Positions 15,317 through 60,101 of a stretch of DNA of 64,000 nt are shown piece by piece. This stretch comes from Sneathiella sp. (lineage in GTDB: Bacteria > Pseudomonadota > Alphaproteobacteria > Sneathiellales > Sneathiellaceae), in assembly GCF_002694385.1 (NCBI RefSeq), contig NZ_NZMB01000005.1, positions 174,938 through 238,937 of the forward strand, written 5' to 3'. Below the pieces are notes generated by a model. It saw only the letters and a program-made list of their open reading frames with translations. It made no database searches and was not told the DNA's origin. Positions within the stretch are counted from its first letter, which is position 1. Every line of letters begins with the position of its first letter. The position numbers and the translations under genes were made by a program.

Positions 15317-16807
15317 ATGGTCAATCTCGGCAGTTTCCTGAAATATCACGCAACACGCTGGCCGGAGAATACCGCCATCGTCTATGAAGATGTCCGCATC
15401 AGCTATGGCGAGCTGTGGGAACGTGTGCGACAGCTCGCCCGATTTTTGAAAGAGCAGGGCATCGGCAAGGGCGATGTGGTCGCCGTCTTCATGAAGAACA
15501 GCCCGGCATTTATAGAAGTGGCCTGCGCCACCAGTTACCTTGGCGGCGTCTTCCTGCCGATAAATTATCGGCTGGCGAGGGACGAGATTGCCTATATCAC
15601 CGGCAATGCCAAGGCGAAGCTGCTGGTTGGAGATGAGGAGTTTTCACCTATCCTGAAACTGGATATGCCGATCATCCTGCTCAATGAGGCGATGCAGAAA
15701 AATCCGCTTGTCCTGACGGGCGGGAATAAAGCCGTTCCATCGCCTGAATTCATGCGCCCGGATGATCTTTTCCGCCTGATGTATACGTCCGGCACGACCG
15801 ACCGGCCAAAGGGCGTCATGCATAGCTATGATAATTTTTACTGGAAATGCATGGAGCATGTGGTGGTCCTCGGGCTGTCGCAGCAGACCCGCCTGCTGGT
15901 CACGGGCCCGCTCTATCATGTGGGAGCGTTTGATCTGCCGGGGGTGGCCGTCCTGTGGCTTGGCGGGATGCTGAAAATTCATCGCGACTTTGATCCGGCA
16001 GACGTGCTGCAGGCGATCGAGGCGGAAAAGCTGACCGGCGCCTGGCTGGCCCCGATCATGATGGCAGGTGTGCTGAGCTATCCGGAACGGGATAAATTCG
16101 ATGTCAGCAGCCTTGAATGGTGCATCGGCGGCGGCGAGAAAACGCCAGAGGGGCGGATCGTCGAATTTCAGGAATACTTCACCAACGGTCGCTATATCGA
16201 CGCCTATGGGCTGACCGAATCCTGTAGCGGGGATACCTTTATGGAACCGGGCTGGGAAATTGAGAAGATCGGCTCCACGGGGCGCGCCACTCCCCATGTT
16301 TCTATCGCCATCGCCAATGACGAAGGCGCCTTCCTTGAACCGGGGGAAGAGGGGGAGATATGCCTGCGCGGCCCGAAGGTCACGGAAGGCTACTGGAATG
16401 ATCCGCAAAAGACGGCGGATACCCGGTTCGGAGACTGGTTCCGCACCGGCGATGTGGGATATCTCGATGAGGATGGCTTTCTCTATCTGACCGATCGCAA
16501 GAAGGATATGATTATCTCCGGCGGGGAGAATATTGCCTCTTCCGAGATTGAACGCGTTATCTATCAGATGCCGGGGGTCATGGAGGCCGCCGTCATCGGC
16601 ATGCCGGACAATCGCTGGGGCGAAGTCCCCGTTGCGATTGTCGTGCCGAAGGAGGGGATAACAATCGATGAGGCCGCGTTTGAGGCTCATTGCCGCAAGC
16701 ATCTGGCAGGCTTCAAGGTTCCAAAACGCCTGATTTTACGGGACAGCCTGCCAAGAAATCCATCCGGAAAAATTCTGAAGCGGGTGCTGCGCGAAGAGAT
16801 CGTCTGA
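15317..16807 (+). CDS. AMP-forming acyl-CoA synthetase
   Basis: A 496-residue ANL-superfamily ligase that activates a carboxylic acid to its CoA thioester. Seen are the P-loop Y-T-S-G-T-T-D-R-P-K-G (about residue 157), the Y-G-L-T-E-S block, the hinge region Y-L-T-D-R-K-K-D-M-I-I-S-G-G-E-N, and the C-terminal P-S-G-K-I-L-K-R, whose Lys is needed for adenylation. AAAAAGGAGGAAGAGG precedes the start. As last gene of the operon it probably provides the entry step for the acid handled by the dehydrogenase and crotonase. Confidence 0.93.
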   Translation: MVNLGSFLKYHATRWPENTAIVYEDVRISYGELWERVRQLARFLKEQGIGKGDVVAVFMKNSPAFIEVACATSYLGGVFLPINYRLARDEIAYITGNAKAKLLVGDEEFSPILKLDMPIILLNEAMQKNPLVLTGGNKAVPSPEFMRPDDLFRLMYTSGTTDRPKGVMHSYDNFYWKCMEHVVVLGLSQQTRLLVTGPLYHVGAFDLPGVAVLWLGGMLKIHRDFDPADVLQAIEAEKLTGAWLAPIMMAGVLSYPERDKFDVSSLEWCIGGGEKTPEGRIVEFQEYFTNGRYIDAYGLTESCSGDTFMEPGWEIEKIGSTGRATPHVSIAIANDEGAFLEPGEEGEICLRGPKVTEGYWNDPQKTADTRFGDWFRTGDVGYLDEDGFLYLTDRKKDMIISGGENIASSEIERVIYQMPGVMEAAVIGMPDNRWGEVPVAIVVPKEGITIDEAAFEAHCRKHLAGFKVPKRLILRDSLPRNPSGKILKRVLREEIV

Positions 16808-16989
16808 CCCGTCTTAGAGCAGGGGTAACGCGGGCTTTGAAGATGGATCGTTTCTGCTTCCGGACGGGCTGCGCTTTAAAAGTCACAGGGACAATAACCT
16901 GTATTGCCTTCAATCTGACATAGTTTGCAATGACACTATATTTATGAAAATCATATAATGTTGGTGTTTACTTTTGAGGAGGACTTAAC
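16808..16989 (+). promoter_or_regulatory. Promoter region of the GlsB-like gene
   Basis: A 182-base gap. A promoter fits well: ATGACA (16930-16935), 18-base spacer, TATAAT (16954-16959). GAGGAGG lies nine bases before the ATG. The preceding part of the gap shows no recognisable terminator. Confidence 0.6.
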
Positions 16990-17241
16990 ATGGGCGAAGC
17001 AGGAATAGGCTGGTTAGCAGCCATTATCATCGGGGGAGTAGCCGGCTGGATTGCCTCAATTCTGATGAAAGCGAATACCGGGATATTCTTCAATATTATT
17101 CTGGGGGTTATTGGCGCCGCAGTGGCGAGCTTTCTGTTCGGCTTGCTCGGGATCTCCTTTGGCGGCTGGCTTGGGTATCTGGTGGCGGGCATCATTGGCG
17201 CCTGCATTCTTGTCGGGATCGTCAGGGCAGTTAAAAATTAG
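16990..17241 (+). CDS. GlsB/YeaQ/YmgE-family stress-associated membrane protein
   Basis: An 83-residue, almost wholly hydrophobic protein with three predicted membrane helices. It has the family pattern G-W-L-A-A-I-I-I-G-G-V-A-G-W-I-A-S, then N-I-I-L-G-V-I-G-A, then G-G-W-L-G-Y-L-V-A-G-I-I-G-A. The family is often induced by general stress or stationary phase; its molecular role is not established. The gene stands alone, with its own consensus-like promoter and a strong terminator. Confidence 0.88.
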   Translation: MGEAGIGWLAAIIIGGVAGWIASILMKANTGIFFNIILGVIGAAVASFLFGLLGISFGGWLGYLVAGIIGACILVGIVRAVKN

Positions 17242-17261
17242 CAGTCAGATGACAGAATAGC

Positions 17262-17291
17262 CAAAACGGGAGGGATAACCCTCCCGTTTTG
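17262..17291 (+). terminator. Terminator after the GlsB-like gene
   Basis: A 12-base perfect stem: AAAACGGGAGGG (17263-17274), loop ATAA, CCCTCCCGTTTT (17279-17290). The tail is short on the rightward strand, but the A-run/T-run symmetry lets it act in both directions. Confidence 0.85.
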
Positions 17292-17311
17292 CATTTGCAG
17301 ATGGCCATAGA

Positions 17312-17343
17312 AAAACCCGCCGGTAGACTTACCGGCGGGTTTT
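17312..17343. terminator. Second bidirectional terminator
   Basis: Arms AAAACCCGCCGGT (17312-17324) and ACCGGCGGGTTTT (17331-17343) around a six-base loop. It is placed to stop leftward transcription from the DctP gene that ends at 17385, and rightward transcription from the GlsB-like gene. Confidence 0.85.
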
Positions 17344-17384
17344 CTGTTGCAGATAACAGGGTATCTTATCCTGCTATTTGTGTA

Positions 17385-18416
17385 TTACTGCTTGGCGAGC
17401 GCATCCCGGAACTGCTTCAGGACTTCGCTGCCGGGCTTGCCGCGGCCATCGAGGTCTTTCGCCCATTCATCCGCGACTTCATCAGAATGTTTCGCGAAGG
17501 TTGCGAGGTCTGACTCGCTGAGCGTATAATATTCAACGCCTTCCGCTGTCATTTCCGCAACGGCCTTGTCAACGCCTTCATCGATGTTGTTGCACATGGT
17601 CGTGACCATTTCCTCGCTGGTTTTGGTCATCACGTCCTTAACGTCATCCGGCAGTTTCGCCCAGGAAGCTTCATTGATCACGAAGCTGACAATGAAGCTG
17701 CCGAAGTTGCCGCCACGTGTGCCGTACTTCAGCAGGGAAACAAGGTCATAGGAGATCACGCTCTGGTTCGGGAAGATCAGCCCATCCAGAGTGCCGCGGG
17801 AGAGGGATTCACGGACTTCCGTTGCCGTCATGCGAACCGGAACCACACCGATCTTGCGGGAAAAGATATCCATGGCGCCGCCGGTGCTGCGCAGCTTGAG
17901 ACCGCTTGCATCCGCCGCCGTCTGAACTTTCTTGTTGGCGGTGTAGATCTGATAGGGCTCAAGCACAAAGGCAAACAGAAGATGAACATTGTTGGCCGCA
18001 AACTCTTGGCTCTTGATCGGGTCCTGATTGGCGACTTCCCAGAAGGCTTTTGTCCCAATACAGGAGGTCGGGAAGCTGCCCGGAAGCTGAGCCACACCGG
18101 CCAGCGGCATTTTGTCAGAGACATAGGAAACGCCGACATAACCGATATCCGTCACGCCATTCTGGGTGAGGGTCAGCATGTCTTTTGCCTTGCCGAGCTG
18201 TTCTGCCGGAAAATGCTCAAAAGTGACGCGACCATCAGTGCGTTCGGTCACCTGCGCCATCCAGGGTTCAACGGCCTGAACCTGAATGAAATGCGCCGTG
18301 GGGAAGGAATGGGCAAGCCGGAGCTTGATCGCGTCCTGCGCCAGTGTTGTTGCCGGTAAACCGGCAACAAGTGCTGCCACAGCTGTAAGTACTAATTTTG
18401 AAATGGTTTTTTTCAT
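17385..18416 (-). CDS. TRAP transporter substrate-binding protein (DctP-like), third copy
   Basis: A 343-residue periplasmic binding protein. The signal peptide covers about residues 1-25 (M-K-K-T-I-S-K-L-V, hydrophobic core, T-L-A before Q-D-A). The DctP body has a conserved L-K-L-R-S-T-G-G-A-M-D ligand region whose Arg should hold a carboxylate. GGGAGAGAA precedes the chosen ATG, ruling out an upstream in-frame ATG. It belongs to a different subgroup from the two DctP copies at 6-9 kb. No DctQM adjoins it; the nearest is at 24.0-25.8 kb beyond the divergent IclR gene and its operon, which is its likely partner. Confidence 0.92.
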   Translation of the reverse strand: MKKTISKLVLTAVAALVAGLPATTLAQDAIKLRLAHSFPTAHFIQVQAVEPWMAQVTERTDGRVTFEHFPAEQLGKAKDMLTLTQNGVTDIGYVGVSYVSDKMPLAGVAQLPGSFPTSCIGTKAFWEVANQDPIKSQEFAANNVHLLFAFVLEPYQIYTANKKVQTAADASGLKLRSTGGAMDIFSRKIGVVPVRMTATEVRESLSRGTLDGLIFPNQSVISYDLVSLLKYGTRGGNFGSFIVSFVINEASWAKLPDDVKDVMTKTSEEMVTTMCNNIDEGVDKAVAEMTAEGVEYYTLSESDLATFAKHSDEVADEWAKDLDGRGKPGSEVLKQFRDALAKQ

Positions 18417-18564
18417 TTCTCTCCCTTTCTGTTGCGCCCGGGTTCTTATTGAATGTGTTTGAAACACAGAGATATACTGGCGCGACGTATCCTGTTACTT
18501 TTTACTTGTTCCGTTATGAGTATGATATACCATATTAAGAACATATCAAGTCAAAGGGAGGGCT
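18417..18564. promoter_or_regulatory. Divergent control region, third DctP / IclR
   Basis: A 148-base gap. For the leftward gene a promoter TTGATA (18544-18549 on the complementary strand), 16 bases, TATCAT (18522-18527) is plausible. A palindrome GTGTTT-G-AAACAC lies near 18453-18465, and an AAGAACATATC element at 18537-18547 overlaps the leftward -35. The element resembles one upstream of the CitE operon. GGGAGGG precedes the IclR start. Autoregulation is inference. Confidence 0.45.
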
Positions 18565-19368
18565 ATGACAAAAAATAATCCGAAAGGGCCGCGGTCTCCT
18601 GCGCGGGTGATGCAATTGCTGGAAGTGCTGGCATCAAGTACGGAAGGATTGACGCTGGCCAAGCTGAGCGCGACGCTGGAAACACCTAAAACCAGCCTGC
18701 TCAGCCTGTTGCGGTCACTGGAAGCCGAGGATTATATCGAGGTTCAGAACAAGGCTTATCAGCTCGGCGCCAGGGCGTATCGCCTTGGCAATATGATCAA
18801 TGCCCGAATGAAGGCGCAATCCTCCTTTCCTTCCGCGGTCCGTCCGTTCCTGCTGGCCCTGTCGAAGGAGAGCGGGGAAACCATTTTCTCCGGCGTGCTG
18901 GCAGAGGAAGGCACGCATGGTGTGTTCATTGATATGGTTGAAGGAAACGGTGTACTGTATCTTTCATCTGTGATCGGGGCGCAGCGGCCGCTATTCTGTT
19001 CTTCATTCGGCAAGTGCCTCTTGGCATTTCAAAGCGTCAACTTCATCCAGAGCTATCTTGAAAAAGTCGATCCTGTTTCGCCGCTGACCGGCGAAAGATT
19101 TGAAAAAAGCGCCATCCTGCATGATCTGGAGCATATCCGCAGAACCGGCGTCAGCGTCACCATGGGAGATACGGTGGAAGAGGCCGGCGGGGTGAGCGTC
19201 CCCGTGTTTGGGGCGGAAGGACGGCTGACGGGCAGCATCACTCTCGCGGCGCCGCTGGGGCGTCTCAAACTTCATTTGCCAAGATATTGCGAACTCGCCC
19301 ATGCAGTGGGGGAACGGGCGTCCCAGTTTATGGGGTATGCCCTGCCGTATCCCGGATCAAAGGAATAG
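18565..19368 (+). CDS. IclR-family transcriptional regulator
   Basis: A 267-residue IclR protein with an N-terminal winged helix (about 10-75: V-M-Q-L-L-E-V-L, L-T-L-A-K-L-S-A-T-L, P-K-T-S-L-L-S-L-L-R-S-L) and a C-terminal ligand domain (about 90-255). Its place between a divergent DctP gene and the downstream lyase/CoA-transferase/TRAP operon makes it the probable local regulator of both. It is distinct in sequence from the IclR gene at 9 kb. Confidence 0.93.
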   Translation: MTKNNPKGPRSPARVMQLLEVLASSTEGLTLAKLSATLETPKTSLLSLLRSLEAEDYIEVQNKAYQLGARAYRLGNMINARMKAQSSFPSAVRPFLLALSKESGETIFSGVLAEEGTHGVFIDMVEGNGVLYLSSVIGAQRPLFCSSFGKCLLAFQSVNFIQSYLEKVDPVSPLTGERFEKSAILHDLEHIRRTGVSVTMGDTVEEAGGVSVPVFGAEGRLTGSITLAAPLGRLKLHLPRYCELAHAVGERASQFMGYALPYPGSKE

Positions 19369-48260: not shown

Positions 48261-49334
48261 TCATAGTGCCGATATGTGGGTGTCGTAAATCTCTTTGGCG
48301 CGGCCCCAGACACCGCTTTCCATATCCTGAAGGGTGAGAAGCGACGGAAGAAGCTGGGCCGCATAGTCTTCGCTGCTTTCCACCGGCAGCATGGAGGGCA
48401 GATTGTCGATAGCCATGACATCAAGCGGCGGCGGGCCGCCCACCACTCGGATCACCGGATCATCGAAGGAGGTGGCGTGATCATAGAGCGGCACTGGATT
48501 GAACGGACTGCTCGGATCACAGGACACATCGGCGATGACGGACAGGCGGCGCGACGCAGTCAGCGCCGATTTTGGAACAAAAACGGGAACCCCGTCCTGT
48601 GCCAGGATGCAGTTGACAAACAGGCTGTGGGTGAGAATTTCCGGAAACGGTCCACCATGGGCGGTTTCGGCCAGATCCCATCGGGTTACATTGAGCCCTA
48701 ATGATTGCAGGCAATCACAGGCACCGCTGCCCACCCGGCCGAGGGCGCCAATTACAATGGCGTTGGGGAATGCCGCACCAGCCTCACTGGCTTTATCGAG
48801 CCCGGCCTTCAGTTCCTTGACCAATACATCCCGCCCCGGATAGACGCCGACGGACTGCGGCCCCGGCCCGCGCCCTGTCTGCTGCGCGATCCAGACCATC
48901 AGCCCCACGGCGGCCCCGGCAAATCCGGCCCAGTAACCGAAGGCGGCAACGCGCCGCCCGGTCTCATCCGTCAGATACTCAAGATCATAAAGAGCCCCGC
49001 CTCCCGCCTTGAAGCGGCGCAGCAGGGCAGGCCCGTCGGCCTGGCCCTTAAAGGCATGGCCGAACATGATGTGACGATGCGGCAGCGGGCTGTCACTTAT
49101 GGGGAGTTCCTTGAGGCCGAAGATGATGGCGTCGCGAGGCGCATCCGGCCAGCTTCCTTCCGGTGCAATGGTGCAGCCCGTCTCGCGATAGGCGGCAATA
49201 GGCAGCGCACGACAGGACGAGTCTTCCACCGTGACGGTCATGCCTTTGGCCATCAGGGCCTTGACTCCTTCAGGCGTAATGCCGACGCGCTGTTCATGCT
49301 CGCGCTGTTCGGCGCGGACCCAGACATGTGTCAT
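48261..49334 (-). CDS. Saccharopine dehydrogenase (NAD+, L-lysine-forming), LYS1-like
   Basis: A 357-residue protein of the alanine/saccharopine dehydrogenase family. The opening R-A-E-Q-R-E-H-E-Q-R-V-G-I-T-P, the F-G-H-A-F-K-G-Q block, and Y-D-L-E-Y-L followed by G-R-R-V-A-A-F-G-Y-W-A-G-F-A-G-A match yeast LYS1 closely; G-A-L-G-R-V-G-S-G-A is the NAD loop. LYS1 interconverts saccharopine and lysine plus 2-oxoglutarate. No other lysine gene is nearby. It lies convergent to the acyl-CoA synthetase. Confidence 0.88.
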   Translation of the reverse strand: MTHVWVRAEQREHEQRVGITPEGVKALMAKGMTVTVEDSSCRALPIAAYRETGCTIAPEGSWPDAPRDAIIFGLKELPISDSPLPHRHIMFGHAFKGQADGPALLRRFKAGGGALYDLEYLTDETGRRVAAFGYWAGFAGAAVGLMVWIAQQTGRGPGPQSVGVYPGRDVLVKELKAGLDKASEAGAAFPNAIVIGALGRVGSGACDCLQSLGLNVTRWDLAETAHGGPFPEILTHSLFVNCILAQDGVPVFVPKSALTASRRLSVIADVSCDPSSPFNPVPLYDHATSFDDPVIRVVGGPPPLDVMAIDNLPSMLPVESSEDYAAQLLPSLLTLQDMESGVWGRAKEIYDTHISAL

Positions 49335-49435: not shown

Positions 49436-50380
49436 TCAGGTGGGATTATTCCCTTGGCGGCAGATACGATCCGTGATGACGGCGGCCGAGGTCCGGTTGT
49501 CGACGCCGAGTTTCTGGAAAATCTGTTCCAGGTGCTTGTTGACGGTGCGGGCGCTGATGGACAGGATATCCCCGATATCCCGATTGGTCTTGCCGCGAGA
49601 GAGCCAGATGAGGATTTCCGCCTCCCTTGCGGTGAGGGAGAAGGCCGCCATCAAGTGCTTCTTCGGATCTGCATTCGTGAGCTTTTCGATGGAGAGCAGG
49701 ATTTCCCGATCGGGATGGATGCCAAGCGGACTGATCACATGCTGGTTATCGTTCGTGCCGAGCCGAAAGGGTGCGGCTTCGGACAACGGTGTTTTGACCA
49801 GACCCGCGATCCATTCACATATTTTCACATCGGTGAGATGGCTGTGCGCATCCAGTATGTCCGGATGCTGGTCCAGCAGTTTGCGCGCCTCGGGCGAGGA
49901 CCAGATCAGACTGCCATCCGGTGTGACGGCCATGACCGGCCGCCCGCCCGCATCGAGGGCGTTTCTGGCGCTTTCAATCAGCCGGGCATTGGTCAGATGG
50001 ATGGAAAGGCGGGCAATCAACTCATCAGGATTGACCGGTTTCGTCACATAATCCACACCGCCCACTTCCAGCCCTTTCAGGATATGCTCTGAAGAGCTGA
50101 GGCCGGTCATGAAAATCACGGGGGCGGCAATCATGCCGGGCCCCGATTTGAGGCGGGCGCAGGTTTCAAACCCGTCGAGACCGGGCATGACGGCATCCAT
50201 CAGGATCGCATCCGGTTGCAGCCGTTTGACGAGATCGAGCGCCGTCTGCCCATCGCGCGCGACGAGAACGGTCATGCCGGCTTCCTCGATTGCGGTAGCG
50301 ACCATGGAAAGTGATTCCGGGCTGTCATCGACAACCAGAACGATCTGCCGCCGCGTGTCGAAATCAGACGGCTGCATCAT
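49436..50380 (-). CDS. LuxR-type response regulator partner of the NCS1 hybrid kinase
   Basis: A 314-residue regulator. A receiver domain (about residues 12-130) has the acidic pocket D-D (18-19), the phospho-acceptor Asp62 in L-M-D-A-V-M-P-G and Lys114 in V-T-K-P. A middle segment (about 140-235, P-D-G-S-L-I-W-S-S-P-E-A) looks PAS-like. A LuxR helix-turn-helix closes it (about 247-310: S-L-T-A-R-E-A-E-I-L, N-R-D-I-G-D-I-L, R-T-V-N-K-H-L). Its start overlaps the kinase stop by 17 bases, so the two form one cotranscribed two-component system. Confidence 0.92.
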   Translation of the reverse strand: MMQPSDFDTRRQIVLVVDDSPESLSMVATAIEEAGMTVLVARDGQTALDLVKRLQPDAILMDAVMPGLDGFETCARLKSGPGMIAAPVIFMTGLSSSEHILKGLEVGGVDYVTKPVNPDELIARLSIHLTNARLIESARNALDAGGRPVMAVTPDGSLIWSSPEARKLLDQHPDILDAHSHLTDVKICEWIAGLVKTPLSEAAPFRLGTNDNQHVISPLGIHPDREILLSIEKLTNADPKKHLMAAFSLTAREAEILIWLSRGKTNRDIGDILSISARTVNKHLEQIFQKLGVDNRTSAAVITDRICRQGNNPT

Positions 50381-53300
50381 GCGTTTCCTCCAGTTCCCGG
50401 ATCAGGCCGGGCAGGTCAAATTCCGACAGCCGGTGACGTAGCGGTTTCAGACTTGCTTTGAGGTCCGGTCGTGCCATCTCCAGTGCATCGAGACGGCGAC
50501 GGATTTCACTTGCATTGCCGATCCGTGCGAGAGAGATGATGTCATGACGGTCTGTGTCGGAGAGCGGCGGACCAACCCGTTCCGCCTGTGGTTGCCGGAT
50601 ATCTTTCGTCCAGTCGATTTTCAGCAAATTGCGGACCTGTTCCAGCAGGATTGAAAAGCTGACCGGTTTGGCGATGAAGGCATCATGCAGCGCATCTTCG
50701 GGGCCGCTGCTCTGGTTCCGGCCTTCAAGAGCATGGGCGGAAACCATCACAATCGGTGTCGCGCGATGGACATCACGGCGGAGCTGGGCGGCAAATTCCC
50801 AGCCTGAAATATCCGGCAGATCGATATCCAGAAGGAACAGGTCCGGCTTTGCGATCTGCAGCATTTCATTGGCAACAATGTGATTAGATGCCAGATAGAG
50901 CTTGAAGCCCAGCGGGGCCAGCAGGGTTTCCATCAACTGCAGATGATCCGTTTCGTCATCCAGAATCAGGATGCTTTTGCGCGGACCGGCATAGCCGGTG
51001 ATGCGCGCCTCTGCCATCTCATCGGGGCGGCTTGCCCGATGCAGGGAGGGGAGCATCATGCGTAGGTTGAAGTGACTGCCCTGACCATAGACGCTGTCCA
51101 CCTTGATCTCCCCGCCCATCATTTCAACAAGCAGCTTTGTGATGGTGAGGCCGAGGCCGGTGCCGCGCACGGTTTTCATGCCCGCCCGTTCGAACGGCTG
51201 CCAGATTTTGTCGATCTGTTCCGCCGGAATGCCGACGCCGGTATCGCTGACCTCGAAATGGGCGACTTCATTGCGATAGGAGAGGGTGAGGCGGACTTCG
51301 CCCCGTTCCGTGTAGCGGATGGCGTTGGAGAGCAGGTTCATCAGGATTTGCCGCAAGCGCTTTTCATCCGTGGTGATCCAGGAGGGGAGGGTGGAGGTTG
51401 CCTCATAGATGAATGTGAGGCCCTTTTCCGCCGCCTGCATTTCAAAAATCCCGGCAAGCTGCGCCATGAAAACGGGAAAATCGACGCGGTCGCGATAAAT
51501 TTCAATTCGCCCGGCCTCAATCTTGGAAATATCCAGCAGCCCTTCGATAAGGCCGGAGAGATGTTCAGCCGAACGGCGAATGGTGGCGACGGCTTCCTTG
51601 CGATTGGGCGGGGTGTTCGGATCCTTGTAGAGAATCTGCGCATAACCGAAAATAGCGTTGAGCGGGGTGCGGAGTTCGTGGCTGAGACCGATCATGTAGC
51701 GGCTTTTCGCCTGACTGGCCGCTTCGGCCTTATCGCGGGCATCCTGAAGCTCCGCATCGGTCCGCTGATGGGCGCGAACCTCCCGCATCAGCCGTTGCGA
51801 TTGCAGGTTTGATTCCCGCCACGCGGCCCGCTGACTTTCATGGGCCAGAATGAACAGCCAGACCGATACCCCGACAATGAACAGCAGGCCGGAGAAGATC
51901 AACGTCAGCGTAATTTCAAAATGGTTCGTGCCAGCCTGTTCATAAATGATCCACAGAAGTATGCCGATCAGCCCCGAAATCAGCGATGTCAGGAGGAGAA
52001 ACTGTACCATCCGGCTTTGCAGAATCTGCACCATATGGGCAGGAAGCAGCCATTTCAGGAAATGGCTGGTTTGCGCATCGATACGGGCGAAGGGCTTGCA
52101 GGCATCGCGACAGACGGAATCGAGTGAGCAGCAGAGAGAACAGATAGGCCCTTCATAAAAGGGGCAATCGGCCATGTCTTCGGGATCGAAACGGTATTCG
52201 CAGACACAGCAGGTGCCCAGAGCTTTCGGCATTTCGGGCGCTGTCCGGGCGATGTAATACCGCCCCTTTGTGCCATAGGCGATCAGCGGTGCCGCCAGCA
52301 TGGCGGTAAACAGCGCGATAAAGGAGGAGAGAGACATGGCCGTCTCACCAAACAGTCCGAAGTAGGCAAGGAAGGAGACGATGCAGGCGGCGCCCATAGC
52401 GCCAAGCCCGACGGGATTGATGTCATAAAGATAGGCACGGCGGAACTCGATATGCGGCGGGCTGAGGCCGAGCGGCTTGTTGATGACAAGATCGGAGACA
52501 ATGGCGCCGATCCAGGCAAGGGCGACATGGGAATAAAAGGCGAGAGTGGCCTCGAGCGCGCCGAACACGCCGAGATTCATCAGCATCAGCGCAATTGCCA
52601 CATTGAACACCATCCAGACAACGCGGCCGGGATGACTATGGGTCAAGCGGGAAAAGAAGTTCGACCAGGCGATGGAACCGGCATAGGCGTTAGTGACATT
52701 GATCTTGAGCTGGCTGAGGATCACGAAGGCACCGGTCAGCGACAGCACGAAAACCGGGTTGTCAATCACTTGGCTGAAGGCGGCGAAATACATCTGGTTG
52801 GGGTCGGCCGCCGTCTCGGGCGCAATGCCCGCGCCAATGGCGATGGTCAGCAGAAAAGATCCCAGCAGCATCTTGCCCGCGCCGATAACAGACCAGCCCG
52901 GTCCGGCGCACATCAGGGATGTCCACCATTTGACCCGCTCGCCACTGGTTTTCGGCTCCGGCAGAAAGCGAATGAAATCAACCTGTTCGCCAATTTGCGC
53001 AATGAGGGAAAAGGCAACGCCCGCCGCCGCGCCCAGCATGATCAGGGTCATGCCGCCGGCCTCCTGCGGGCCGATACCTTCAAATGCCTGCCAGTCGGTG
53101 ATGCCATATCCTGCGAAGGCCAGCAGCACAAAAGGCAGGATATGCAGGATAACCCAGAAGGGCTGCGTCCAGGCCTGGAACTTTGAAATCTTGGTAAAGC
53201 CGTGGGTGGCAAGCGGGATCACCACCAGCGCATTCAGCAGATAACCGAGCCAGACGGGAATGCCGAAACAAAGCTCCAGGGCGAAACTCAGAATGGCCGC

Positions 53301-53699
53301 TTCCAGCGCGAAGAAGATAAAGGTGAAGCTGGCATAAATGAGAGAGGTCACCGTCGATCCGATATAACCGAAGCCCGCGCCACGGGTCAGCAGATCAATA
53401 TCAACGCCATATTTTGCCGCATAATAGGTGATGGGGATGCCCGTCAGGAATAGCAGCAGGCCGACCAGCATGATGGCGGTGATGGCGGTATCGAAGCCGT
53501 AGCGCAGGGTGATTGCCCCGCCGATCGCCTCGAGGGCGAGAAAGGAAATGGAACCGAGAGCGGTATTCGTGACCCGCAGATAGGACCAGCGGCGCGCGCG
53601 CCGGGCGGTGAAGCGAAGCGCGAAATCCTCCAGAGTTTCATTCGCGACCCATTGATTGTACCGCCGACGCTCTCTCATGACGCCAAAAATCGGTTTCAT
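50364..53699 (-). CDS. Hybrid sensor histidine kinase with an N-terminal NCS1 transporter-like domain
   Basis: A 1111-residue hybrid kinase. Residues about 30-480 are a polytopic domain resembling nucleobase:cation symporter-1 (cytosine/purine permease) proteins, with about 12 helices and conserved-looking A-L-E-A-I-G-G-A-I and A-Y-A-G-S-I-A-W-S-N-F-F. A cysteine-rich segment follows (497-534, nine or more Cys). Two more helices lie at about 565-620, then a coiled coil (625-668). HisKA has His674 in S-H-E-L-R-T-P-L, and HATPase has N-L-L-S-N-A, D-T-G-V-G and G-T-G-L-G-L. A receiver domain has Asp958 (L-L-D-I-D), and a helical tail spans 1045-1111. Divergent from the amide/urea ABC operon. The transporter part probably senses or carries the ligand; this is inference. 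Confidence 0.92.
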   Translation of the reverse strand: MKPIFGVMRERRRYNQWVANETLEDFALRFTARRARRWSYLRVTNTALGSISFLALEAIGGAITLRYGFDTAITAIMLVGLLLFLTGIPITYYAAKYGVDIDLLTRGAGFGYIGSTVTSLIYASFTFIFFALEAAILSFALELCFGIPVWLGYLLNALVVIPLATHGFTKISKFQAWTQPFWVILHILPFVLLAFAGYGITDWQAFEGIGPQEAGGMTLIMLGAAAGVAFSLIAQIGEQVDFIRFLPEPKTSGERVKWWTSLMCAGPGWSVIGAGKMLLGSFLLTIAIGAGIAPETAADPNQMYFAAFSQVIDNPVFVLSLTGAFVILSQLKINVTNAYAGSIAWSNFFSRLTHSHPGRVVWMVFNVAIALMLMNLGVFGALEATLAFYSHVALAWIGAIVSDLVINKPLGLSPPHIEFRRAYLYDINPVGLGAMGAACIVSFLAYFGLFGETAMSLSSFIALFTAMLAAPLIAYGTKGRYYIARTAPEMPKALGTCCVCEYRFDPEDMADCPFYEGPICSLCCSLDSVCRDACKPFARIDAQTSHFLKWLLPAHMVQILQSRMVQFLLLTSLISGLIGILLWIIYEQAGTNHFEITLTLIFSGLLFIVGVSVWLFILAHESQRAAWRESNLQSQRLMREVRAHQRTDAELQDARDKAEAASQAKSRYMIGLSHELRTPLNAIFGYAQILYKDPNTPPNRKEAVATIRRSAEHLSGLIEGLLDISKIEAGRIEIYRDRVDFPVFMAQLAGIFEMQAAEKGLTFIYEATSTLPSWITTDEKRLRQILMNLLSNAIRYTERGEVRLTLSYRNEVAHFEVSDTGVGIPAEQIDKIWQPFERAGMKTVRGTGLGLTITKLLVEMMGGEIKVDSVYGQGSHFNLRMMLPSLHRASRPDEMAEARITGYAGPRKSILILDDETDHLQLMETLLAPLGFKLYLASNHIVANEMLQIAKPDLFLLDIDLPDISGWEFAAQLRRDVHRATPIVMVSAHALEGRNQSSGPEDALHDAFIAKPVSFSILLEQVRNLLKIDWTKDIRQPQAERVGPPLSDTDRHDIISLARIGNASEIRRRLDALEMARPDLKASLKPLRHRLSEFDLPGLIRELEETHDAAV

Positions 53700-53934
53700 C
53701 CGGTGTGTCCTGCAGCAAAGGCCAATGTCATTGTTAAATCCTTGTTGCGCCCCGTAATCCGTTGTTTCCCTTTTACTGCCTCCTGCTTGTTCCGTTTTTA
53801 TGCACCGTCAAAAGGCGCATGCACATACGTTAAACGACGTATGTTGCAATGCAACATTTTTCTCCAGTCTTTTTTGCGAAGCAGCGATATGCGCTGTGAT
53901 CTGGGAAAGACAGGCAGGTTCAAAGGAGAAAGCA
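53700..53934. promoter_or_regulatory. Divergent kinase / ABC-operon control region with two palindromes
   Basis: A 235-base gap. ACATACGT (53823-53830) and ACGTATGT (53837-53844) form an 8-base inverted repeat around six bases. Overlapping it, ATGTTGC (53841-53847) and GCAACAT (53851-53857) form a 7-base repeat around AAT. LuxR-family dimers bind such short-spaced repeats, so the adjacent regulator is the prime candidate. AAAGGAG precedes the binding-protein start. Promoter hexamers are not clear. Confidence 0.6.
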
Positions 53935-55203
53935 ATGTCCGATACACCAAAGAAACCCTCACTCTCAATGGAAGCGTCACGCCGCTCGTTTCTGATGGGT
54001 GGAACGGCGCTTGCCGCCACGCTTTTTGCCCCCAAATTTCTGCGGGCGGCGGATTACCCGACTGCGGCGGTCAATACAACCGGTCTCGCCGTGACTGATA
54101 CCGACGTAACGGTCGGTATCCTGCATTCGGTCACCGGCACCATGGCGATTTCGGAAACCGGATCGGTGCAGGCCGAAAAGCTTGCGATTGAGCAGATCAA
54201 TGCGCAGGGCGGGGTTCTAGGGCGCCAGATCAAATTCATTCAGGAAGACGGCGCCTCTGACTGGCCGACTTTTGCCGAAAAGGCCAAGAAGCTGCTGGTC
54301 AACGACAAGGTCGCCTCGGTCATGGGTTGCTGGACATCGGCGAGCCGCAAAGCCGTTCTGCCGGTGTTCGAGCAGTATAACGGCTTCCTCTACTACCCGA
54401 CCTTCTATGAAGGGCTGGAAGAATCTCCCAATGTCATCTACACCGGTCAGGAAGCAACGCAGCAGATTATCGCCGGTATCGACTGGGTGACCCAGACCAA
54501 GGGGGCGAAATCCTTCTATCTCCTCGGCTCCGACTATATCTGGCCGCGTACCTCCAACAAGATCGCCCGCAAGCATATCGAGAAGCTGGGCCTCAAGGTG
54601 GTTGGTGAGGAATATTACCCGCTTGGCCACACGCAGTTCAACTCCGTCATTAACAAGATCCGCCTCTCCAAGCCCGATGTGATCTATGCCATCGTCGTGG
54701 GCGGTTCCAACGTTGCATTCTACAAGCAGCTGAAGGCGGCCGGTATCGATATGACGAAGGAAAAACCGCTGCTACTGACCATTTCGGTGACCGAGGACGA
54801 AATCCGCGGTATCGGCGGTGAAAACATCGTCGGCGCCTATGCCTGCATGAAATACTTCCAGAGTCTCGATAATCCCAACAACGTCGAATTTGTGAAAGAA
54901 TTCAAGAAGATGTGGGGCGATGACATGGTCATCGGCGACGTGACGCAGGCCGCCTATCTCGGCCCATGGCTGTGGAAGGCGGCGGTTGAAAAGGCCGGAT
55001 CCTTCGATGTGGACAAGGTACGGGAGGCGAGCCCCGGTATCGAACTCACCACCGCGCCGGAAGGTTACGTCAAGGTCCATGAAAACCACCATCTCTGGTC
55101 CAAGACCCGTGTCGGCCATGCCAAGGCGGACGGACAGTATGAAGTCGTCTTCGAAACGGCGGAGCTGGTCGAGCCGGATCCGTTCCCGGAAGGATACCAA
55201 TAG
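53935..55203 (+). CDS. urtA: Urea/short-chain amide ABC transporter binding protein (UrtA/FmdD-like)
   Basis: A 422-residue binding protein. The N-terminal R-R-S-F-L-M-G twin-arginine motif (about residue 16) with the hydrophobic A-L-A-A-T-L-F-A segment indicates Tat export. The mature part starts D-Y-P-T and has V-G-I-L-H-S-V-T-G-T-M-A and the A-I-E-Q-I-N-A-Q-G-G-V-L-G-R block of UrtA-type proteins. GGAG before the chosen ATG rejects an ATG 45 codons upstream. Homologues bind urea; close relatives in formamidase clusters bind short amides. The downstream FmdA favours amide as at least one ligand. Confidence 0.92.
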   Translation: MSDTPKKPSLSMEASRRSFLMGGTALAATLFAPKFLRAADYPTAAVNTTGLAVTDTDVTVGILHSVTGTMAISETGSVQAEKLAIEQINAQGGVLGRQIKFIQEDGASDWPTFAEKAKKLLVNDKVASVMGCWTSASRKAVLPVFEQYNGFLYYPTFYEGLEESPNVIYTGQEATQQIIAGIDWVTQTKGAKSFYLLGSDYIWPRTSNKIARKHIEKLGLKVVGEEYYPLGHTQFNSVINKIRLSKPDVIYAIVVGGSNVAFYKQLKAAGIDMTKEKPLLLTISVTEDEIRGIGGENIVGAYACMKYFQSLDNPNNVEFVKEFKKMWGDDMVIGDVTQAAYLGPWLWKAAVEKAGSFDVDKVREASPGIELTTAPEGYVKVHENHHLWSKTRVGHAKADGQYEVVFETAELVEPDPFPEGYQ

Positions 55204-55301: not shown

Positions 55302-56228
55302 ATGTTTGCCGATTATACGATGGGAGAGCTTGGGGCCATTTTCGCCATGCAGGGTTTTGCCGGTCTCATTCTTTTCTCGGTTTTTGTTCTCATGGCGCTC
55401 GGGCTGGCCATCATTTTTGGTCAGATGGGGGTGATCAACATGGCGCATGGCGAGTTTATGATTCTCGGCGCCTATGTCACATATATTACCTCCAACCTGT
55501 TCGCCGATTACCTGCCATCGCTGTTCAGCATCTATTTCTTTATTGCGATGATCCTCGCGTTTTTCGTAACGGCGGCCCTCGGTATGCTGGTGGAATGGAG
55601 TCTGATCCGGCATCTCTATAAACGCCCGCTGGATACCTTGCTGGCTACCTGGGGGCTCAGCCTTATCCTGCAGCAGATATATCGCTCCGTTTTCGGCGCG
55701 CGCGAGGTGGGGGTGACCATCCCGGACTGGATGATGGGGTCTTTGCCACTCACCGATTTGATCGAAGTTCCCATTAACGGTATTTTCGTGATGGTCCTGG
55801 CCATCAGTATTTCCGTCGCTGTCTATTTCATGATGTATCGCTCCTCCTGGGGCAAGCAGGTGCGCGCGGTGACGCAGAACCGGGTCATGGCGGGCGCGGT
55901 CGGCATTAATACGGAACGAACGGACCGTCTCACCTTCGGGATCGGCTGCGGCGTTGCCGGTGTGGCTGGTTCCGCCTTTACGATGATCGGTTCCACCGGC
56001 CCGACGGCAGGTCAGCTTTACATCGTGGACACCTTCCTTGTCGTCGTCTTTGGCGGCGCGGCCAGCCTGCTCGGAACGATTGCTTCGGCCTTTTCGATCT
56101 CGCAGGCGCAATCGATCATGGAATTTTTCCTCTCCGGCTCCATGGCCAAGGTGCTCACGCTCCTCACCGTTGTCGGCATTCTGATGCTGCGTCCCCAGGG
56201 GCTGTTCGCCCTCAAACTCAGGAAGTGA
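55302..56228 (+). CDS. urtB: Urea/amide ABC transporter permease 1 (UrtB-like)
   Basis: A 308-residue permease of the branched-chain-amino-acid/urea type with about eight helices. It has G-L-A-I-I-F-G-Q-M-G-V-I-N-M-A-H-G-E-F-M near residue 35 and R-A-V-T-Q-N-R-V-M-A-G-A-V-G-I-N. It lacks the N-terminal periplasmic extension of some proteobacterial UrtB proteins. AGGAGACAGCAT precedes the ATG. Confidence 0.92.
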   Translation: MFADYTMGELGAIFAMQGFAGLILFSVFVLMALGLAIIFGQMGVINMAHGEFMILGAYVTYITSNLFADYLPSLFSIYFFIAMILAFFVTAALGMLVEWSLIRHLYKRPLDTLLATWGLSLILQQIYRSVFGAREVGVTIPDWMMGSLPLTDLIEVPINGIFVMVLAISISVAVYFMMYRSSWGKQVRAVTQNRVMAGAVGINTERTDRLTFGIGCGVAGVAGSAFTMIGSTGPTAGQLYIVDTFLVVVFGGAASLLGTIASAFSISQAQSIMEFFLSGSMAKVLTLLTVVGILMLRPQGLFALKLRK

Positions 56229-56238
56229 GGTGACCGAG

Positions 56239-57381
56239 ATGTTTGCAAAAGATAACAAGCTTTTCTCCACGGGCGATATCGTTGGCTTTGTCGTCCTGGC
56301 CGTGCTGATCTTCATCGTCCTGCCGGCCGGCCTGGATACCTTCCGTCTCAATCTGTTCGGCAAATATCTGACCTATGCTTTCGTGGCGATCGGTCTGGTC
56401 CTCTGCTGGGGCGCGGGTGGTATCCTGAGCCTCGGGCAGGGGGTGTTCTTCGGCCTTGGCGGCTACTGCATGGCCATGTTCCTGAAGCTGGAAGCGTCAA
56501 CGCCGGAAGCGACCAAAATCCAGTCCACCCCCGGCATCCCGGATTTCATGGACTGGAACCAGATCACCGCGCTCCCCATGTGGTGGGAGCCCTTCAACAG
56601 CCTGACATTCAGCCTTATTGCCGTGGTGCTGGTGCCGGTCATCTTCGCCTTCATTATCGGGGTGGCCATGTTCCGGCGGCGGGTGGGTGGTGTTTATTTT
56701 GCAATCATCACACAGGCGATTGCCGCCATCATGACCATCCTGATTATCGGTCAACAGGGCTATACCGGCGGCGTCAACGGCATCACTGACCTGCGGACCC
56801 TGCTTGGATGGGATATCCGCACCGATGAAGCAAAGGTTATTCTCTATTTCGTGAATGCGGTGCTGCTGTTCGTTTGTCTCTTTGTGGCCCAGTTCATCCG
56901 CAAATCGAAGCTTGGCCGAATTCTGATTGCCATGCGCGATCAGGAAGACCGGGTCCGCTTCTCCGGATATGACGTGGCCAATTTCAAGATTTTCGTCTTC
57001 TGCGCCGGGGCGGCTTTCGCGGCCATTGGCGGGGCTATGTTCACGCTGCAGGTGGGGTTCATGTCCCCCAGCTTTGTCGGCATCGTGCCATCCATCGAAA
57101 TGGTCATTTTCTGCGCCGTCGGCGGGCGGCTCTCGATCCTCGGGGCGGTTTATGGCGCGCTGCTTGTCAATCTGGCGAAAACCACCTTCTCCGAAATGTT
57201 CCCGGAACTCTGGCTGCTGGGTCTCGGCGCCCTCTTTATCGCGGTGGTGCTGGCGTTCCCGAACGGCCTTGCCGGTCTCTACAAGGATTATGTGGAGCCG
57301 CGGCTGATGGCCCTGTTCAAAAAGAAGGCCGATGACGGGGGCGGACGTAATTTCGATAGCATCAAGGCCCCGGCTGAATAG
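56239..57381 (+). CDS. urtC: Urea/amide ABC transporter permease 2 (UrtC-like)
   Basis: A 380-residue permease with about nine helices. It shows L-C-W-G-A-G-G-I-L-S-L-G-Q-G-V-F-F-G-L-G-G-Y, characteristic of UrtC/LivM. GAGG lies upstream of the chosen ATG; a GTG three codons earlier also reads in frame. It pairs with UrtB in the membrane. Confidence 0.92.
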   Translation: MFAKDNKLFSTGDIVGFVVLAVLIFIVLPAGLDTFRLNLFGKYLTYAFVAIGLVLCWGAGGILSLGQGVFFGLGGYCMAMFLKLEASTPEATKIQSTPGIPDFMDWNQITALPMWWEPFNSLTFSLIAVVLVPVIFAFIIGVAMFRRRVGGVYFAIITQAIAAIMTILIIGQQGYTGGVNGITDLRTLLGWDIRTDEAKVILYFVNAVLLFVCLFVAQFIRKSKLGRILIAMRDQEDRVRFSGYDVANFKIFVFCAGAAFAAIGGAMFTLQVGFMSPSFVGIVPSIEMVIFCAVGGRLSILGAVYGALLVNLAKTTFSEMFPELWLLGLGALFIAVVLAFPNGLAGLYKDYVEPRLMALFKKKADDGGGRNFDSIKAPAE

Positions 57382-57392
57382 GAGGAAAAAAG

Positions 57393-58139
57393 ATGAACGC
57401 AAGACCTGATTTCCTGCTGACCGTTGAAAATCTGACTGTTTCCTTCGACGGGTTCAAGGCGGTCAATGGCCTCAGCTTCTATGTAGAACCCAATGAGTGC
57501 CGGGTGATCATCGGCCCCAACGGAGCGGGGAAGACAACCGTTCTCGATCTGATCTGCGGCCGCACCAGGGCGACCGATGGCAAGGTCGAATTCAAGGGGC
57601 AGGATCTTCTCAAGATGCGGGAAGACCAGATCGTTCATGCCGGGGTAGGGCGCAAGTTCCAGACGCCCACCGTTTATGAAGATCTGACTGTCTTTGAAAA
57701 TCTGGAGATTTCCTACCCTAAGGGACATGGCGTTTTTGGCGCCCTGATGTTCCGCCGCGATGATCCGGTGAAGGAGCGTATCCATGAAATTGCCAGCGTG
57801 GTTTTTCTCGACGATCTGCTGGATATGAAAGCGGCCTTTCTCAGCCATGGGCAGAAGCAATGGCTGGAGATTGGCATGCTGCTCATCCAGGATCCGGAAT
57901 TGCTGATGCTGGATGAACCGGTTGCAGGCATGTCGGTGGCCGAGCGCAAGCAGACGGCGGAACTCTTAAATCGCATTATCCAGGACCGTTCGGTGATCGT
58001 GATCGAACATGACATGAAATTTGTCGAGGATATCGCGACCCGCGTCACCGTGCTGCACCAGGGCAAGGTTCTCTCCGAAGGGTCCATGGCGCATGTGCAG
58101 GCGGACCCTAAAGTCATTGAAGTTTATCTCGGCCACTAA
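57393..58139 (+). CDS. urtD: Urea/amide ABC transporter ATP-binding protein 1 (UrtD-like)
   Basis: A 248-residue ATPase with Walker A G-P-N-G-A-G-K-T-T (about residues 43-51), an unusual signature L-S-H-G-Q-K-Q-W-L-E-I-G, Walker B L-L-M-L-D-E-P-V-A-G-M and switch His in I-E-H-D-M. The S-H-G-Q-K-Q-W signature is the hallmark of UrtD. AGGAGGAAA precedes the start. Confidence 0.94.
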   Translation: MNARPDFLLTVENLTVSFDGFKAVNGLSFYVEPNECRVIIGPNGAGKTTVLDLICGRTRATDGKVEFKGQDLLKMREDQIVHAGVGRKFQTPTVYEDLTVFENLEISYPKGHGVFGALMFRRDDPVKERIHEIASVVFLDDLLDMKAAFLSHGQKQWLEIGMLLIQDPELLMLDEPVAGMSVAERKQTAELLNRIIQDRSVIVIEHDMKFVEDIATRVTVLHQGKVLSEGSMAHVQADPKVIEVYLGH

Positions 58140-58147
58140 GGGAGGAA

Positions 58148-58840
58148 ATGATGCTGAATGTAGACAATCTTCGTTCCGCTTACGGCGAATCCGAAGTGCT
58201 CCACGGCCTCGATTTTAGTATTAATCCGGGGGAGATCGTCGCCATCATGGGCCGCAATGGCATGGGCAAGACGACGCTCATGAAAACCCTGATGGGGGTG
58301 GTTCCGACCAAGTCGGGCCATGTGACGATCGATGGCAACTCGATCGAGGGGCTCAAATCATATGAGCGTGTGGCCAAAGGCCTCGCCTATGTGCCGCAGG
58401 GAAGGCAGATCTTCTCGACCATGACCGTAGAGGAAAATGTTGAGACCGGACTCATTGTCACGGGCGACAAGAAAGTCAGCCCCGATATCTATGAACTTTT
58501 TCCGGTTCTGGTTGAAATGAAATCCCGGCGCGGCGGTAATCTCTCTGGGGGTCAGCAGCAACAGCTTGCCATCGCCCGCGCTCTGGCATCCAAGCCAAAG
58601 GTCCTGCTGCTCGATGAGCCGACAGAGGGCATCCAGCCGTCCATCATCCGGGAAATGGCGCGCACCCTGCGCCGTATCCGCGATGAACGCGGGCTTTCGA
58701 TCATCGTATCGGAACAGGTTTTGAGTTTCGCCCTCGATGTTGCGGACCGCGTTCTGGTGCTGGAAAACGGCGAATTTGTTCATGAATCACCCCGCACCGG
58801 GATCGACGAAGCAAAAGTCTCGAAATTCCTGTCCGTCTGA
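58148..58840 (+). CDS. urtE: Urea/amide ABC transporter ATP-binding protein 2 (UrtE-like)
   Basis: A 230-residue ATPase with Walker A G-R-N-G-M-G-K-T-T, signature L-S-G-G-Q-Q-Q-Q-L-A-I-A-R-A-L and Walker B L-L-L-D-E-P-T-E-G-I-Q, the UrtE variant. GGAGG precedes two adjacent ATG codons; the second has the better spacing. It completes the transporter. Confidence 0.94.
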   Translation: MMLNVDNLRSAYGESEVLHGLDFSINPGEIVAIMGRNGMGKTTLMKTLMGVVPTKSGHVTIDGNSIEGLKSYERVAKGLAYVPQGRQIFSTMTVEENVETGLIVTGDKKVSPDIYELFPVLVEMKSRRGGNLSGGQQQQLAIARALASKPKVLLLDEPTEGIQPSIIREMARTLRRIRDERGLSIIVSEQVLSFALDVADRVLVLENGEFVHESPRTGIDEAKVSKFLSV

Positions 58841-58868: not shown

Positions 58869-60101
58869 ATGACTGATACCCTTATTGAAGTGAATCTGGG
58901 CGAAAGCCCGCTCACGAACGAGAAAATTCACAATCGCTGGCATCCGGATATTCCGATTGCCGTCTGGGTCAAGCCGGGAGATGATTTCAAGGTGGAAACC
59001 TATGACTGGACCGGTGGCCAGATCAAGAATAACGATGATGCCTCCGATGTTCGCGATGTGGAGCTGGCGCAGGTTCATTATCTCTCCGGTCCGATCGGCA
59101 TTGAGGGGGCGGAGCCCGGCGATCTGCTGGTTGTTGATATTCTGGATATCGGCGCCAAGGAAGAGAGCATGTGGGGGTTCAACGGCTTCTTCTCCAAGCA
59201 GAATGGCGGCGGCTTTCTGACTGACCATTTCCCGGAAGCACAGAAATCCATCTGGGATTTTGAAGGCATGTTCACAAAGTCCCGCCATGTGCCGGGCGTC
59301 CGTTATGCCGGCCTGATCCATCCGGGGCTGATCGGGTGCCTGCCGGACAAGAAGATGCTGGATATGTGGAACACACGAGAGACGGAGCTGTTCAATACGG
59401 ACCCTGGCCGCGTTCCCGGCCTTGCCAACCTGCCGGATGGCGGCCCGACCGCGCATATGGGCAAGCTGACCGGGGAGGCCCGTGACAAGGCCGCCGCCGA
59501 AGCCGCCCGCACCGTGCCGCCGCGCGAACATGGCGGTAACTGCGATATCAAGGACCTGTCCCGTGGATCAAAAGTCTACTTCCCGGTCTATGTCGATGGG
59601 GCGGGGCTTTCCATGGGCGATCTGCATTTCAGTCAGGGGGATGGTGAAATCACCTTTTGCGGTGCCATTGAAATGGCGGGCTGGCTGCATATCAAGGTCG
59701 ATCTGATCAAGGGCGGGATGAGCAAATACGGGATCAAGAACCCGATTTTCCGGCCCTCTCCGATTGCGCCGAAATATGACGACTTCCTGATCTTTGAAGG
59801 CATCTCCGTCGATGAAGCAGGCAAGCAGTATTATCTGGATGTGCATATTGCCTATCGGCAGGCCTGCCTCAATGCCATCGAATATCTGAAGAAATTCGGA
59901 TACACCGGGGCGCAGGCCTACGCCATCCTTGGCACCGCGCCAGTGCAGGGGCATATCTCGGGCGTGGTAGACGTTCCGAATGCCTGTGCAACCCTGTGGT
60001 TGCCGACCGATGTGTTTGAATGGGATCTGATGCCGAATGCCGATGGGCCGACGAAATATCTCGACGGTTCCATTGATGTGCCGCTGGCGCCCGATCTCTG
60101 A
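58869..60101 (+). CDS. fmdA: Formamidase
   Basis: A 410-residue acetamidase/formamidase-family enzyme that hydrolyses formamide to formate and ammonia. Strong family blocks are H-N-R-W-H-P-D-I-P near residue 20, G-A-E-P-G-D-L-L-V-V-D-I-L-D-I, R-Y-A-G-L-I-H-P-G-L-I-G, R-E-H-G-G-N-C-D-I-K-D-L-S-R-G and F-S-Q-G-D-G-E-I. TGAGGAGGCAAA precedes the start. Location after the ABC genes links amide uptake to hydrolysis. No urease gene is present. Confidence 0.95.
   Translation: MTDTLIEVNLGESPLTNEKIHNRWHPDIPIAVWVKPGDDFKVETYDWTGGQIKNNDDASDVRDVELAQVHYLSGPIGIEGAEPGDLLVVDILDIGAKEESMWGFNGFFSKQNGGGFLTDHFPEAQKSIWDFEGMFTKSRHVPGVRYAGLIHPGLIGCLPDKKMLDMWNTRETELFNTDPGRVPGLANLPDGGPTAHMGKLTGEARDKAAAEAARTVPPREHGGNCDIKDLSRGSKVYFPVYVDGAGLSMGDLHFSQGDGEITFCGAIEMAGWLHIKVDLIKGGMSKYGIKNPIFRPSPIAPKYDDFLIFEGISVDEAGKQYYLDVHIAYRQACLNAIEYLKKFGYTGAQAYAILGTAPVQGHISGVVDVPNACATLWLPTDVFEWDLMPNADGPTKYLDGSIDVPLAPDL

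Follow-up and report, generated by a model that had tools for sequence, protein, structure and literature searches.

An NCS1-type transporter domain fused to a hybrid histidine kinase as a probable sensor of urea and short-chain amides

Introduction

Induction of uptake and amidase operons by urea or formamide has been known for decades, and no named membrane sensor for it was found in the literature. In the 64,000-nucleotide stretch of Sneathiella sp. DNA analysed here (the window), a large hybrid histidine kinase gene is divergent from a urtABCDE-fmdA operon. An earlier note on this DNA had read the N-terminal half of the kinase as a complete cytosine/purine-permease-type (NCS1) membrane domain and had proposed that it perceives a nitrogenous nutrient. 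What, then, does a kinase recognise through a whole transporter domain, and do its relatives and their gene partners point to the ligand? As set out below, we consider that this protein is probably a transporter-derived sensor of urea and/or short-chain amides (formamide, acetamide), which induces uptake and hydrolysis genes together with a LuxR-type partner.

Results

Organization of the locus

The kinase gene is a single unbroken frame encoding 1111 amino acids (Table 1). The parts required for a hybrid kinase are present, namely a HisKA domain with the H-box histidine, a HATPase domain, a receiver aspartate and a cognate response regulator, whose gene shares 17 nt with the 3' end of the kinase gene. 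The phospho-acceptor and receiver residues named in the earlier note were confirmed at positions 674 and 958, ahead of the helical tail, and the corresponding domains were found by Pfam. The note had not mentioned the Cys8 module, a pair of additional hydrophobic helices (peaks at residues 567-585 and 600-618), the overlapping LuxR-type regulator gene or the intergenic dyad. An Hpt domain was not matched by Pfam in the kinase or the regulator, and the kinase tail has no conserved histidine. The want of a recognisable Hpt partner in these two proteins makes the proposed phosphate route from kinase to regulator a tentative one.

On the other side of the intergenic region, UrtA, UrtB, UrtC, UrtD, UrtE and FmdA each scored above their NCBIfam cut-offs, which agrees with the divergent amide/urea ABC transporter and formamidase operon described before. 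For urtA, a start at 53935 is most likely, rather than one at 53800. The genome also has a urease, located at another place. To the 3' side of the regulator gene, positions 48261-49334 encode an alanine dehydrogenase/PNT-like protein that scored far under the NCBIfam alanine dehydrogenase cut-off; no homologue of it was found in 80 related loci.

Table 1. Features of the kinase-urt-fmdA locus (positions in the window)
Feature	Positions	Strand	Basis or content
Partner response regulator	49436..50380	-	Pfam; receiver 14-125, LuxR-type HTH 248-302
Hybrid histidine kinase gene	50364..53699	-	NCS1-type domain, Cys8, 2 TM, coiled coil, HisKA, HATPase, receiver, helical tail
C-terminal helical tail, residues 1030-1111, poorly conserved	50367..50612	-	Alignment
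Receiver domain, residues 910-1022; Asp958 codon 50826-50828	50634..50972	-	Pfam
HATPase_c, residues 777-882	51054..51371	-	Pfam
Coiled coil and HisKA (Pfam 671-730); phospho-acceptor His674, codon 51678-51680	51510..51839	-	Pfam
Extra transmembrane helix pair, residues 563-620, then long helix	51840..52013	-	AlphaFold2 model, hydrophobicity
Cys8 module, residues 494-536	52092..52220	-	Conservation in fused homologues
NCS1-type membrane domain, residues 20-486	52242..53642	-	Profile comparison, AlphaFold2 model, alignment
Dyad ATACGTTAAACGACGTAT, proposed response-regulator site	53825..53842	.	Matrix match between kinase and urtA
urtA, substrate-binding protein	53935..55203	+	NCBIfam; start moved from 53800
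urtB, permease	55302..56228	+	NCBIfam
urtC, permease	56230..57381	+	NCBIfam
urtD, ATPase	57393..58139	+	NCBIfam
urtE, ATPase	58148..58840	+	NCBIfam
fmdA, formamidase	58869..60101	+	NCBIfam, Pfam

The membrane domain is a divergent NCS1 domain

The N-terminal half of the kinase gave no Pfam match, PF02133 included, even at E <= 10, and its own-genome search was likewise negative. A Ribonuclease-III-like match in the Pfam/NCBIfam scans (E 0.04) was judged to be chance, and a PDB sequence search with an 11-member profile found no relative. When a family of 53 sequences, whose profile is shallow (Neff 2.2), was compared by hhalign with 30 NCS1 proteins, the match had a probability of 98.9% (E 1.7e-17), with 397 columns aligned and an identity of 16%; the control families reached probabilities of 1.1% (SSF/SLC5) and 0.2% (APC). 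The AlphaFold2 model (pLDDT 83.8, pTM 0.82) had as its top structural matches in the PDB the NCS1 transporters CodB (7qoa, E 2.4e-9) and Mhp1 (2jln, E 4.9e-9), with all other LeuT-fold families scoring behind them. In addition, a kinase-free Klebsiella homologue (L182; 40-43% identical) passed PF02133 with 37.7 bits against a cut-off of 23.5 over residues 36-438. Because the profile comparison, the structure search and this PF02133-positive relative agree, we regard it as settled that the membrane domain belongs to a divergent NCS1 branch with the CodB/Mhp1 fold. The idea of a full NCS1-type membrane domain was thus upheld by three routes, though PF02133 misses the protein itself, and no profile assigned this half to another family.

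Conserved residues, sodium and the question of transport

Residues K332-I333 align with Thr278-Thr279 in TM8 of CodB, as mapped from the hhalign alignment and published residue numbers rather than from a direct CodB alignment; lysine is present in all 141 aligned relatives and isoleucine in 140. The two CodB threonines are hydroxyl ligands of Na+ at the Na2 site (PMC9379551). Because lysine replaces the first of them in every member, Na+ coupling of the sensor domain is unlikely, as judged from the alignment. Lysine was not a common residue at this position among the 30 NCS1 proteins sampled, several of which also lack the threonine pair, so that the pair is not strictly defining.

Other positions are invariant as well: E133 (TM3), Q235, E238, D241, Q330, K332, N334 and N337, among others, are the same in 141/141 sequences, sensors and kinase-free relatives alike. 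Such conservation is what would be expected if the domain still carries urea or an amide, probably without Na+ coupling, and the kinase reports turnover as a true transceptor; the SLC5 domain of the kinase CbrA can by itself mediate histidine uptake (PMC13022988). However, nearly every sensor has a distinct high-affinity importer, or some other permease, encoded next to it. Also, the TM1 break reads L56-E57-A58 in the sensors and D-F-S in the kinase-free relatives; given this difference, the ligand or transport behaviour of the sensors may have changed, and transport could have been lost. We therefore hold a flux sensor to be possible but doubtful, and it departs from the preferred reading, a sensor of urea or small amides, in the trigger only.

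The Cys8 module

Between the NCS1-type domain and the extra helix pair lies a module with the pattern C497-x2-C500-x11-C512-x7-C520-x2-C523-C524-x5-C530-x3-C534, probably a metal-binding knuckle. A fold search with the module alone returned zinc-finger-like matches (PHD, RING, LIM) that were weak, the best at E 0.27, and the module was assigned to none of these families.

On the one hand, since the eight cysteines are kept in 135/135 fused homologues and the weak fold matches are zinc fingers, the module might itself be the main input, for a metal such as Zn or Ni or for redox state, with the NCS1 domain serving mostly as an anchor. Urease requires nickel, which would suit this reading. On the other hand, kinase-free relatives have a four-cysteine tail (CxxC...CxxC) in place of the eight cysteines, and in one such permease (L184; the Arthrobacter U41 protein) the tail is mostly lost, so the module is not specific to sensors. 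Moreover, the NCS1 domain of the sensors is highly conserved, and formamidase-only contexts have no need for nickel. We consider a cysteine-based input improbable.

Distribution and gene partners

A scan of genome contigs gave 542 relatives, of which 80 were taken, nearly all from Alpha-, Beta- and Gammaproteobacteria. As this set leans to near relatives, 398 evenly sampled Pseudomonadota genomes were also searched. The sensor domain was present in 52 of these genomes at 57 places, always fused, as judged by ORF length. Among the 56 loci fetched from this sample, 54 have genes for urtABCDE, formamidase or urease nearby: 35 have urtABCDE with fmdA as in the window, 2 have fmdA alone, 7 have urease and 10 have a urea-type urtABCDE (6 without and 4 with urease). 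The NCBIfam identity of the urea-type genes was checked on one locus (L073), which gave UrtA-E and urease alpha. The other two loci both end at contig boundaries. In this sample, homologous fusions are accordingly not found beside unrelated operons, and the view of the kinase as a dedicated sensor of a nitrogenous nutrient gains support from these partners.

In a tree of 67 rows, the context must have switched between formamidase and urease three times or more on well-supported branches, indicating that the link to small amides and urea was kept through independent rearrangements. Within the genus Sneathiella (25 genomes), 4 have both sensor and fmdA and 20 have neither; in a fifth genome with the sensor, which is fragmented, it lies on a 3.3-kb contig with a urtA match. 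At the thresholds used, formamidase-linked and urease-linked sensors could not be told apart at any residue, so the sensor sequence yields no ligand split.

Counting against the link is a locus from Beijerinckia sp. L45 (L059) with full flanks: the sensor and regulator are there, but urt, fmd and urease genes are all absent for about 10 kb around them, and the genes nearby encode, among others, a sarcosine-oxidase-like protein and an acyl-CoA dehydrogenase.

Kinase-free relatives and an exchanged kinase

Relatives of about 535-575 amino acids without a kinase form a separate clade (support 100/100 in the 67-row tree). In K. pneumoniae, such a protein is encoded directly after ureG (L182:8980-10587) and is annotated as a cytosine permease, which is probably a misnomer. 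On Acinetobacter plasmids, one heads a ureEFG-J-D-ABC run under the annotation of allantoin permease or hypothetical protein; in another genome (G555) it is flanked by a urea-type urt operon and urease, and in Arthrobacter U41 it adjoins an aliphatic amidase. For two copies in Streptomyces and a further one in Arthrobacter, there were no telling genes among the listed neighbours. In A. baumannii (L280:5314-10590), a fused sensor and a kinase-free permease are divergent, with 165 bp between the ORF ends.

The cysteine-tailed permeases and the sensors thus share descent, and the permease would be the ancestral form. Two loci (L229:7921-10650 and L248:7939-10623) combine a membrane domain, Cys8 module and helix pair of the window type with another, shorter kinase without a receiver, 27-28% identical to the window kinase in this part. 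They have a different regulator, and fmdA is still near. This exchange indicates that the sensor part is a module.

The nature of the ligand

Considering the repeated independent changes of context and the kinase-free relatives in urease operons, urea or short-chain amides are a well-supported candidate ligand, as far as gene content can tell. The earlier note had named the small amide or urea and also an allantoin- or nucleobase-related compound; the first part of this guess stands, and the second draws on the family name only. A nucleobase, hydantoin or allantoin as ligand, with the operon induced because such compounds break down to urea, would fit the fact that characterised NCS1 transporters mostly carry such compounds (PMC13390362), as well as the allantoin or cytosine permease annotation of some kinase-free relatives. 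However, the genes linked to the sensor are urea/amide importers, urease, formamidase and amidase, kinase-free relatives lie within urease operons, and no purine- or allantoin-pathway gene was seen among the annotated or profiled neighbours, part of the neighbouring ORFs having been profiled. We think it very improbable that the ligand is of this kind.

Gene neighbourhood does not tell urea from formamide or acetamide, nor substrate sensing from nitrogen-status sensing. A sensor that answers to nitrogen starvation or ammonium instead of the nutrient would be in line with the common nitrogen control of amide and urea genes: the Methylophilus fmd cluster is repressed at high concentrations of a repressing compound (PMC10781810), and transporter-fused ammonium sensors are known, as in the Amt kinase (PMC5764959). 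Nevertheless, the membrane domain here is NCS1, not Amt, and near-related permeases without a kinase in urease and amidase operons fit a carried substrate as the ligand. Nitrogen status is thus an unlikely signal. In Methylophilus, both urea and formamide induce the fmd cluster (PMC10781810), which fits a general sensor of small amides.

A conserved dyad in the intergenic region

Among the upstream regions of 95 formamidase-type kinases, word counting found TACGTCA in 59, against 19 for the best shuffled word, and gapped dyads built on TACGTCA also emerged. The dyad matrix has the family consensus ATACGTCA-ww-TGACGTAT, and the dyad of the window is a perfect match to it, the sole one at 0 mismatches in the 3.6-Mb genome. 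In 22 of 25 urease/urea-type loci outside the matrix set, the best site of the locus lies no more than 700 bp ahead of the kinase gene, urtA or fmdA; these regions make up 7.2% of the sequence, and the 25 loci are related, so they are not independent trials. Where urtA is 2-10 kb away from the kinase, the site accompanies urtA (L265, L256, L262, L266 and L231), and in L216 the site accompanying a distant urtA is the second-best of the locus. In A. baumannii L280 the best dyad lies between the fused sensor and the kinase-free permease, and in the kinase-swapped L229 and L248 the dyad is not present.

The region between the kinase and urtA showed no sigma-70-like promoter. A second palindrome at 53841-53857, ATGTTGCAATGCAACAT, perfect apart from its centre, touches the proposed regulator site.

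A copy on Klebsiella plasmids

In a plasmid collection, 342 Klebsiella records hold homologues of the sensor domain. One of them, the IncFIB/IncFII conjugative plasmid NZ_LR890723.1 of Klebsiella pneumoniae (L161), has the sensor (15977-19357), the regulator, a strong dyad (15855) and urtABCDE-formamidase, with the fmdA slot taken by a nitrilase-type formamidase (AmiF/AmiE-like) instead of FmdA. RefSeq calls this sensor only 'ATP-binding protein'.

Discussion

Starting from the architecture, family, gene partners and dyad of the sensor, we infer the ligand, the signal path, the DNA binding of the regulator and the direction of the response as follows. Urea or a small amide would occupy the NCS1-type domain and shift its conformational equilibrium, and this shift would travel via the cytoplasmic Cys8 module, the extra helix pair and the coiled coil to His674. 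Phosphate would then reach the adjacent LuxR-type regulator, either by way of the receiver in the kinase itself or alongside it, and this regulator would bind the dyad and activate urtABCDE-fmdA and probably its own operon.

The sensor type is widespread and nameless: its relatives and their regulators appear in databases as 'ATP-binding protein', 'response regulator', 'ArcB' and, once, 'PotE'. We lean towards a wider picture in which the NCS1-fused proteins form an unnamed, widespread class of receptor kinases that recognise urea and short-chain amides. Beside them would stand an unrecognised branch of NCS1 urea/amide permeases, labelled cytosine or allantoin permease, to which the protein of the K. 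pneumoniae urease operon would belong; the sensor would have arisen from such a permease, its cysteine tail kept and doubled, and been joined to at least two kinase outputs. The family would thereby provide a candidate urea/amide sensor with its regulator and DNA site. It also points to what is likely to regulate the urea system that spreading Klebsiella plasmids carry, and to a possible ligand for a permease of urease operons whose name is probably wrong. The kinase-free sisters and the natural kinase swap offer material for how transporter motion becomes a signal.

The open-access literature searched contained nothing direct on an NCS1-kinase fusion or a regulator of urt/formamidase operons, an absence that is no proof; one genome paper records a hybrid kinase and a LuxR regulator next to a urtABCDE operon, with no further comment (PMC13296017). 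Uptake and formamidase operons of a similar kind are known from the Methylophilus fmd cluster (PMC10781810) and from the UTS of Klebsiella ST307 plasmids (PMC5506382, PMC13060141). The available portions of the UTS accounts name no regulator, whereas the L161 copy has both sensor and regulator; judged by gene content, the two would be one cluster.

With regard to the membrane domain, CodB, Mhp1 and MetT share the fold and a distant sequence likeness, but here the domain is fused to a kinase. MetT is an example of an NCS1 member that can carry small non-ring guanidine compounds, and its transport does not depend on Na+ (PMC13390362). The Amt-histidine kinase of Kuenenia likewise reuses a transporter for sensing a nitrogen nutrient, although its transporter family is unrelated and its ligand is another (PMC5764959). 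A close likeness is to CbrA, CrbS and RpuS (SLC5-STAC proteins of Pseudomonas, Vibrio and Sinorhizobium), in which a whole LeuT-fold transporter is fused to a kinase with a response regulator partner and serves nutrient use; CbrA binds histidine and CrbS controls acetate use. In CbrA, motion of the SLC5 domain is believed to reach the kinase through the STAC domain (PMC13022988). In our sensor, residues 471-580 gave no Pfam match, to STAC or otherwise, and the Cys8 region is not a four-helix bundle in the model. Their membrane domain is SLC5 while ours is NCS1, and at the position of the STAC linker of CbrA lies the Cys8 module with two extra transmembrane helices. Thus, the NCS1-fused kinase resembles CbrA but forms a separate class, and it adds, beside SLC5, a second class of LeuT-fold transporter made into the input of a kinase.
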